A DNA stretch of 61,506 nt, taken from the NCBI GenBank assembly GCA_019429185.1, contig JAHYJH010000008.1:1-61506 (forward strand). The letters run 5' to 3'. This document shows positions 21,975 to 45,639 of the stretch, piece by piece. Both the position numbers and the translations under genes were made by a program. Under the pieces are notes generated by a model. That model was not told the DNA's origin, searched no databases, and saw only the letters and a program-made list of their open reading frames with translations. The DNA comes from Vicingaceae bacterium (GTDB taxonomy: Bacteria > Bacteroidota > Bacteroidia > Flavobacteriales_E > Vicingaceae). How positions within the stretch are numbered: position 1 is the first letter of the stretch; every line of letters begins with the position of its first letter.

Positions 21975-23174
21975 ATGCTTAAAGGCAAACATATTCTTCT
22001 TGGGGTTTCAGGTGGAATTGCTGCTTATAAAACACCCTTACTTGTTCGTTTATTAATAAAAAACGGAGCAACTGTAAAAGTTGTTCTAACTCATTCTGCA
22101 ATTGATTTTGTTACTCCTCTAACTTTAGCAACTGTTTCTAAAAATGAAGTTTTTATTGAATTTTTCAATAAAGAAACAGGCGTTTGGAACAACCATGTTG
22201 AATTGGCACGTTGGGCCGATTTGTTTATTATTGCTCCAGCAACAGCAAACACCATTGCTAAAATGGCAAATGGCATTTGTGATAACTTATTATTAGCCAC
22301 TTATTTCTCTGCTAAAAGCCAAGTTATGATTGCCCCAGCAATGGATGTTGATATGTTTCAGCATCCAACATTAAAAGCAAATATAGCTAAATTAAACGCT
22401 TTTGGAAATACCATTTTGCCCTCTCCAAAAGGTGAGTTAGCTAGTGGAATTGATGCCGAAGGAAGAATGAGTGAACCTGAGTTTATTTATAACAAGGTAT
22501 TAGATTTCTTTAATACAACTCAAGTTTTAAAAAAAAAAAGAGTACTCATAACAGCAGGTCCAACCATAGAAAAAATTGACCCAGTTCGTTTTATCAGTAA
22601 CTTTTCTACAGGAAAAATGGGTGTAGAGTTAGCCAACAGAGCTGCTCAACTTGGTGCTGATGTTGATTTAATCATAGGGCCAACAAATTTAGCAACATCA
22701 TCTTCGATTAATAGAATAAACGTATTATCTGCTCAAGAAATGTATGATGAAGTTCATAAAAAAATAGTTTTTGCAGATATAATAATAATGGCTGCTGCTG
22801 TTGCAGATTTTACACCTAAACTTAAATCAACAACTAAAATAAAAAAAACAACTCAAAAAGAAAATATATTATCTAATTTGGAGTTAGTTCCAACAAAAGA
22901 TATTTTAGCTTCTGTTGGGAATATTAAAACAAAAAAACAACTATTGGTTGGATTTGCATTGGAAACAGACAATGAGCTTAAAAATGCAAAAGATAAATTG
23001 AAAAGAAAAAAATTAGACTATATTGTTTTAAATTCGTTGAATGATAGCGGTGCAGGTTTTGAATATGAAACCAATAAAATAACTATTATTGGGAAAAATA
23101 ATATGGAAAAATCATTTCCTTTAAAATCAAAAACGGAAGTGGCTAAAGATATTTTTGAAACAATACTTAATTAG
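21975..23174 (+). CDS. coaBC: Phosphopantothenoylcysteine decarboxylase / phosphopantothenate-cysteine ligase
   Basis: This bifunctional coenzyme A enzyme makes 4'-phosphopantetheine from 4'-phosphopantothenate. The N-terminal flavoprotein (CoaC) domain has GVSGGIAAYK (8-17) and VMIAPAMDVDM. The CoaB ligase domain starts at about residue 190 with ITAGPTIEKIDPVRFISN and STGKMG, then MAAAVADF. The 399-residue length is normal. The frame ends with TAG at 23172-23174, and that stop codon lies inside the terminal TAATTAGAG of a palindromic insertion, so the last residues may have been shaped by the insertion. Confidence 0.95.
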   Translation: MLKGKHILLGVSGGIAAYKTPLLVRLLIKNGATVKVVLTHSAIDFVTPLTLATVSKNEVFIEFFNKETGVWNNHVELARWADLFIIAPATANTIAKMANGICDNLLLATYFSAKSQVMIAPAMDVDMFQHPTLKANIAKLNAFGNTILPSPKGELASGIDAEGRMSEPEFIYNKVLDFFNTTQVLKKKRVLITAGPTIEKIDPVRFISNFSTGKMGVELANRAAQLGADVDLIIGPTNLATSSSINRINVLSAQEMYDEVHKKIVFADIIIMAAAVADFTPKLKSTTKIKKTTQKENILSNLELVPTKDILASVGNIKTKKQLLVGFALETDNELKNAKDKLKRKKLDYIVLNSLNDSGAGFEYETNKITIIGKNNMEKSFPLKSKTEVAKDIFETILN

Positions 23175-39202: not shown

Positions 39203-39358
39203 TATTTACTTTTCTAGTATCACGTTTTCAATAAGGGTAAAAATTGTATTTTTTCCTACGTTCAATTCAACAGAAAACATTTTAGTTTGATATGCTTCAG
39301 CTTATACAGAAATATTTTCCTTGTTTGTGAAGATATAAACAAAGGCGGAAAGATAATT

Positions 39359-44458: not shown

Positions 44459-44496
44459 TTAAAATAAATGAAAAAATCAGTTTTTACTTTCATATT
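44459..44496 (+). repeat. 38-bp direct repeat, first copy (orphan gene start)
   Basis: An exact 38-base match to 44683-44720. It includes ATG at 44468 and the first ten codons of the DUF6268 gene (MKKSVFTFI), but here the frame runs into a hairpin and stops after 25 codons. It is therefore a non-functional duplicate of the gene start. Confidence 0.9.
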
Positions 44497-44503
44497 TTTT
44501 CTG

Positions 44504-44562
44504 TGCCATTGTTTGTGTCATCACAAACGATATTTTTGTTTGTGATGACACAAACAAAGGCA
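44504..44562. repeat. Long near-perfect hairpin (24 of 25 bp)
   Basis: A perfect 20-bp stem (44509-44528 with 44538-44557, loop GATATTTTT) extends by one mismatch and four more pairs (TGCC/GGCA) to 44504 and 44562. The stem repeats TTTGTGTCATCACAAA-like sequence. There is no T-run after it on either strand. It lies inside the segment bounded by the two 38-bp direct repeats. Confidence 0.9.
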
Positions 44563-44682
44563 ACAAACATTAAAAGCATTTATTAATACGAGAAAATTTA
44601 TCAACGGCTTGTTTATTTTTTTAATATTGTGCTAAAGTTCTCTGTGGCATAATTAATTTAGGTAATAAAACGGATAAGCATA

Positions 44683-44720
44683 TTAAAATAAATGAAAAAA
44701 TCAGTTTTTACTTTCATATT
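44683..44720 (+). repeat. 38-bp direct repeat, second copy (functional gene start)
   Basis: Identical to 44459-44496. This copy contains the working start codon (44692) of the DUF6268 gene; the distance between copies is 224 bases. Confidence 0.9.
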
Positions 44721-45639
44721 GTTTTTTTTAATTCTGCTTCATTCAGCATTTAATCAGTCTTTTCATGTCAATAATATATTTAATCCAGGACTTACAATTG
44801 GTACTGATTACCCACTTTCAGCCTCATTAAATGATACATCTGATTTTCAATTAATAAGATATAAAATTCAACTTGTTAAACCTGTGCGAACACGATATGG
44901 AGTAGCTTTAGAAGATTTTGATGTTAAAGATCCGAATGCAAAGGCAAGTCAGATGTTTGTTGCAACTAAATTTAGTGTTGCTCATCCTTCCATAACCAAT
45001 AGTCATTATGATAATGTTTACAAAGGCGAGTTGGAATTTACAGCAATTACAGCAAGCAATAAAAATGGTATTTGGGTGTATTCTGCTAATCTTTATGCTG
45101 AAGAAAGTAGCACTTCTTTTCATAAAAATTTCATGCCTAACATTAAGGTTTATACTGCTTTTGTAAATATTCAGCATTTAAAATTTGTTTATTTTTATGG
45201 TGCTACTATTCTTGTTAACCAAGGCAGATTTTATCCATTACCTTTGTTTGGTTTTAGGGCTATTTTATCTCAAAGATTAAAGTTAGAGTTTCTAATTCCT
45301 GTTCACATAAAACTAAATTATGAACTTACCGAAAAATTAAATCTTGATTTAGCAGGTTATTTTAGCGGAATTAATGCCATAAAAAGAGAAGGATCGGCAC
45401 TACAAAAAAACGACAATACATTGAATTTAAGAGAGCTAAAAATTTATTTAGCATTAAACACTAAATTGGCAGAGCATTATAAACTAAAAGTTGAATTTGG
45501 CTATGCTTCTATGCGGAAAATTCATAGATTAACAACTGATTTTAAGCAAGATTTAACATCAGCACCTTATATTAGTTTTTCGTTGAATTATAATTTTGGA
45601 AATTCCGTATTTGGAAACTTCATTGATAGAACAGAATAA
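44692..45639 (+). CDS. DUF6268 outer-membrane beta-barrel protein
   Basis: This 315-residue exported protein has a signal peptide (MKKSVFTFILFFLILLHSAFNQ, cleavage about 20). The mature region alternates hydrophobic strands and ends with an aromatic strand pattern (APYISFSLNYNFG), consistent with an outer-membrane barrel. Segments such as LNTKLAEHYKLKVEFGYASM fit the DUF6268 family. Function unknown. Its first 29 bases and the preceding 9 are duplicated at 44459, and a large hairpin sits between, so its 5' region has been rearranged. Confidence 0.65.
   Translation: MKKSVFTFILFFLILLHSAFNQSFHVNNIFNPGLTIGTDYPLSASLNDTSDFQLIRYKIQLVKPVRTRYGVALEDFDVKDPNAKASQMFVATKFSVAHPSITNSHYDNVYKGELEFTAITASNKNGIWVYSANLYAEESSTSFHKNFMPNIKVYTAFVNIQHLKFVYFYGATILVNQGRFYPLPLFGFRAILSQRLKLEFLIPVHIKLNYELTEKLNLDLAGYFSGINAIKREGSALQKNDNTLNLRELKIYLALNTKLAEHYKLKVEFGYASMRKIHRLTTDFKQDLTSAPYISFSLNYNFGNSVFGNFIDRTE

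Follow-up and report, generated by a model that had tools for sequence, protein, structure and literature searches.

A dispersed hairpin repeat between long direct repeats at the start of a DUF6268 gene in a Vicingaceae genome

How did the start of a DUF6268 gene come to be present twice, with a long hairpin between the two copies? The locus lies in the window, by which we mean the whole 61.5-kb stretch of DNA analysed here. The first-pass annotation described an exact 38-bp repeat occurring twice, 224 bases apart, and a hairpin with 24 of 25 pairs right after the first copy, and both descriptions were borne out when coordinates and exactness were re-checked. Specifically, the copies occupy 44459–44496 and 44683–44720, with a start-to-start spacing of 224 bp, and the hairpin arms are found at 44504–44528 and 44538–44562 (24/25 pairs, 9-nt loop). 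The repeat stretches to 42 bp with one mismatch, at position 39 (41/42 identical), and encloses 182–186 bp that begin with the hairpin. The hairpin region folds far better than its dinucleotide shuffles (z = −6.1). A scan of the window for direct repeats within 600 bp gave no other pair that is both at least 30 bp long and >90% identical; a second listed pair, at 23168/23316, reaches 88% identity. The features of the locus are as follows.

44459–44496, + strand: copy 1 of the direct repeat, exact over 38 bp and extending to 44500 (42 bp) with one mismatch; its left side runs into native upstream sequence
44468–44545, + strand: abortive upstream reading frame, MKKSVFTFIFFLCHCLCHHKRYFCL, which starts in copy 1, enters the hairpin and stops there
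44501–44566 (about 44501–44570), no strand: R, the hairpin repeat, made of two inverted REP-like halves with arms at 44504–44528 and 44538–44562
44584–44631, + strand: fragment resembling the family B dispersed repeat; 44596–44631 is 97% identical to the C79 copy
44657–44682, + strand: solo right terminus of MITE family C, TTTAGGTAATAAAACGGATAAGCATA, exact terminus match
44683–44690, + strand: TTAAAATA, the first 8 bp of copy 2, which in length and base composition resembles a family C 8-bp target duplication
44683–44720, + strand: direct repeat copy 2; its right side runs into the intact DUF6268 gene
44692–45639, + strand: DUF6268 gene, 315 aa, complete, with its start inside copy 2

The closest relatives, G001 and G005 of the same genus, are about 91–96% identical to the focal locus and carry the empty site. 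Their alignment runs from the upstream recF-like gene through one uninterrupted copy of the 42-bp sequence, without the hairpin, into the DUF6268 gene, and the window matches them to the left of copy 1 and to the right of copy 2. The same structure is absent there; therefore, the insert and the duplication both arose in the focal lineage. The duplication is recent, because the copies are 41/42 identical. The DUF6268 gene of G001 seems, from two alignment pieces, to have lost ~507 bp internally (L030 1675–1682).

A search for the hairpin elsewhere in the 3.66-Mb genome identifies it as a dispersed repeat, R, present at about 27 places. R comprises two inverted halves, GCCATCGTTTGTGTC…/…GACACAAACAAAGGC, with ends GCCATCGTTTGTGTC and GCCTTTGTTTGTGTC, and amounts to a head-to-head dimer of GCC-A/T-TYGTTTGTGTC-N-TCACAAAC hairpins; lone halves occur too. 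About 10 copies are carried within a larger repeat starting GTATTACAGGATTTAG. A degenerate half lies at 39317–39346 of the window (TTCCTTGTTTGTGAAGATATAAACAAAGGC). In form R is REP/REPIN-like, that is, an inverted palindromic dimer, dispersed and mostly extragenic. When the hairpin was compared with known RNA families, only microRNA-type hairpin models appeared, all below threshold. Among the sister species, R has only degenerate matches, one in G001 and three in G005, and none was found in G002–G004. R is also present in two genomes of other genera in the family (G035 and G031), and a search of a species-level genome collection for R outside the family gave one exact pattern match. In G035, R and its flank show local tandem or partial duplications that have diverged (94% and 89%; L184 1–222 and L177 1491–1607).

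R sits after codon 9 of the DUF6268 gene. The frame of copy 1 ends inside the hairpin after 25 codons, and the DUF6268 gene behind it is intact. The locus illustrates how a gene-internal insertion that also duplicates the gene start can spare a functional copy, and the preservation of one intact gene may be what lets R insertions within genes persist.

Three R sites of the focal genome lie between long, nearly identical direct repeats, of 38 bp at the focal locus, 87 bp on contig C90 and 66 bp on contig C91. The C90 insert consists of nothing but the 61-bp R (GCC...GGCAAC), which abuts identical 87/87-bp copies on both sides; the empty site in G001 has a single copy without R. On C91, 65/66-bp copies over the start of a gene that, from its translation, is presumably lipB enclose two R halves. 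The duplication at C91 is at least 66 bp long; the rest of copy 1 was not found on another contig, the pattern being present only once in the genome, and the upstream neighbour of lipB in G001 has no match in the focal genome. Copy 1 at C91 is broken by a family B element (described below), and several contig ends coincide with this family. A fourth case comes from a different genus, on contig PFUQ01000218.1 (C32) of G035, Flavobacteriales bacterium CG_4_9_14_3_um_filter_32_8, where R directly follows the first of two 56/56-bp copies; copy 1 is cut by the contig end, so the duplication is at least 56 bp. At all four duplication loci, the right end of copy 1 falls within a few bases of the R end.

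The association was quantified by scanning 833 kb of the focal genome for spaced repeats (≥38 bp, ≥97% identity, gap 40–260), which gave six, three of them enclosing R. With 40 random sites, the chance expectation for an overlap of R and repeat is 0.02, giving P of about 1e-6 by a rough Poisson estimate, rough also in that the 833-kb sample comes partly from contigs picked for R and not every R copy is independent of the rest. On C160 (L150 13522–13694), a spaced direct repeat of 48 bp carries no R and lies within another repeat family (GCCACTAAGACACAAAATCACAAAG).

Duplication accompanies R at 3 of ~27 sites, or 3 of ~17 outside the larger R-carrying repeat; no flanking repeat was found at the remaining R places. 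Concatenated R-site flanks were used to search for further empty sites, and only four loci, on C109, C123, C160 and C147, aligned across the insertion point. In these, the relatives show ~10–36 bp of other sequence where R stands, and there is no duplication; some of the stretches that look replaced may be ordinary divergence. Thus, R insertion has variable outcomes, from as much as 87 bp of target duplicated to some tens of bp lost. Such a range would not be expected of a DDE transposase whose stagger is fixed, but would be of break repair that captures a piece of DNA, or of a similar process. The variable target change at R sites thus seems to fit staggered-break repair better than fixed-stagger transposition.

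The focal insert as a whole is composite. That the entire 186-bp spacer is one element was considered and did not hold: searched as a unit, the spacer has no second copy in the genome, where only R, the B-like piece and the family C end recur, and the element is instead the ~65-bp R. No donor with R joined to the 116-bp right part was found anywhere in the assembly. The two recurring families other than R are as follows.

MITE family B (L088, L089, L090, L018 and L025:1–127): ends GTTACTACTCAGCCG, 8-bp target duplications; full copies start GTTACTACTCAGCC
MITE family C (contigs C102, C121, C123, C174, C215 and C225 of G000; L091–L095): ends TATGCTTATCCGTTTGTTTACCTA, ~175 bp

Family C comprises six such elements with paired inverted ends, terminal sequence AAACGGATAAGCATA and 8-bp target duplications, the last inspected at L091, L093 and L095. 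At the focal locus, the family C right end is exact and the left end is missing, and TTAAAATA occurs on both sides only because the long repeat carries it. The terminus followed by TTAAAATA probably marks a separate MITE event, the left end of which was lost or decayed. Three orders of events are possible: R with its 38-bp duplication came first and a MITE then inserted at the edge of copy 2; a MITE came first, and an R event then duplicated ~154 bp, with loss of the left MITE; or two separately hit copies recombined.

How R and the long duplications arose together is best explained, in our view, by capture of R at breaks. On balance, and with modest confidence, we take R to be a short, mobile-like palindromic repeat whose insertion into the DUF6268 start copied the adjacent target by staggered-break repair, a mechanism suggested by the anatomy of the sites. 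R DNA would be joined into a staggered or resected break; repair synthesis restarting upstream of the break would create the long duplication, and where bases were lost at the break, R would end up replacing some tens of bp, the pattern of the duplication-free sites. The extra 116 bp to the right of the focal R would then be a second layer, consisting of the remains of a family C MITE with its own 8-bp duplication (TTAAAATA) and the family-B-like stretch. The earlier suggestion that an element arrived and generated a long target duplication is supported by the empty sites, the dispersal of R and the clean C90 case, with the amendments that the long duplication is not invariable and that the element is R rather than the spacer. 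The companion suggestion, capture of the gene start, is not needed, because every case duplicates its own local sequence.

A bolder account, which we consider tentative and clearly less probable, is that the ~61-bp non-coding R is a true transposable unit for which some host or transposon enzyme would make a long staggered cut; duplications of ~40–200 bp would then be normal, and the duplication-free sites would be old or secondarily altered. To a similar degree doubtful is that R is a non-autonomous MITE, reduced to its terminal inverted repeats and mobilised by a DDE transposase whose target duplications are long and variable. IS1549 and IS1634 do make direct repeats of 8–514 bp (PMC2266710), the focal genome holds IS1634-family transposases, R has inverted ends and is an exact unit between 87-bp repeats at C90, and its ends from the second base, CCATCGTT and CCTTTGTT, fit the loose, weak IS1634 consensus C-----YT (PMC2266710, table). 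However, the resident complete IS1634-family copy, on C224, ends ACCTAAATTGG, unlike R; nowhere in the 833 kb scanned do two R halves lie close together with a gene-sized gap between them; and several R sites have no duplication and look like replacements, while single halves also exist. R as the ends of that resident copy was considered separately and rejected, the C224 ends (ACCTAAATTGGAAAATAAG) having no significant match to R. The C224 element itself (L120 1279–2950) has a 525-aa open frame and 30-nt inverted ends, ACCTAAATTGGAAAATAAGTTAATAACCAT.

Mobilisation of R by a RAYT (Y1 transposase) in single-stranded form, in the manner of a REPIN or BIME and with the duplications as later template-switching accidents at the long hairpin, is unlikely. 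It would account for the coexistence of inverted-hairpin dimers and singles, as in REP/BIME systems (PMC3733652), and for the local tandem R duplications in G035, and there are six Y1 transposase genes in the focal genome. Yet none of the six is flanked by R in an assembly that is 96% complete, R has no GTAG or CGTC foot (GCC precedes its halves), and the C90 duplication meets R exactly on both sides and both are absent from the relative, pointing to a single event. The analysis turned up no enzyme acting on R. For the focal case only, R in codon 9 and a family C MITE before the start codon could have inserted independently and been joined by recombination between sister copies, the repeat length then being the distance between the insertion points; the right junction is exactly the family C terminus followed by a possible 8-bp target duplication, but C90, with R alone between 87-bp repeats, is left unexplained, and we regard this as quite improbable. 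Least probable is an assembly artefact. All genomes used are drafts split into many contigs and probably assembled from metagenomes, R is repetitive, and the C91 and PFUQ01000218.1 cases lie at or near contig ends; against this, the focal case and C90 are contig-internal, the focal copies differ at position 39, a typical read is far longer than the 38-bp repeat, and the same pattern is present at four loci in two genomes.

Capture of R at breaks, our preferred reading, can be set beside several known systems. Long, variable target duplications in bacteria have been reported for two insertion sequences, IS1549 and IS1634, and according to the review that describes them no mechanism had been proposed (PMC2266710). 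R resembles these at the sites where long direct repeats of variable length flank the insert (8–514 bp in IS1549 and IS1634; PMC2266710). It differs from them in that they are ~1.5–2 kb long with their own transposase, whereas R is ~65 bp, non-coding and often without a duplication; no transposase ends matching R were found in the comparison with the resident IS1634-family element. Like REP dimers, BIMEs and REPINs, R is a short dispersed palindrome, mostly extragenic, in which two inverted units form a long hairpin. Unlike them, it lacks a GTAG or CGTC foot, has a low copy number of ~27 and has no R-flanked RAYT gene that we found, and the portion of the REP literature consulted reports no long flanking duplications such as those of R. 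The family B and C MITEs of the same genome are also non-coding inverted-repeat elements, and a family C end lies within the focal insert itself, but every copy inspected has a target duplication of the same length, 8 bp. The CGTC-type RPE of Rickettsia are likewise short palindromic repeats that form dimers and have no dedicated transposase known (PMC3733652); R differs in having no CGTC foot, and at the focal locus the target is duplicated and the gene is intact. Because its ends differ, the foot is absent and no Y1 gene is flanked by R, we place R neither with IS1634 nor with REP. As a 61-bp element with long duplications at some sites, deletions at others and empty sites in relatives, R offers a simple natural system for studying how such long duplications form.
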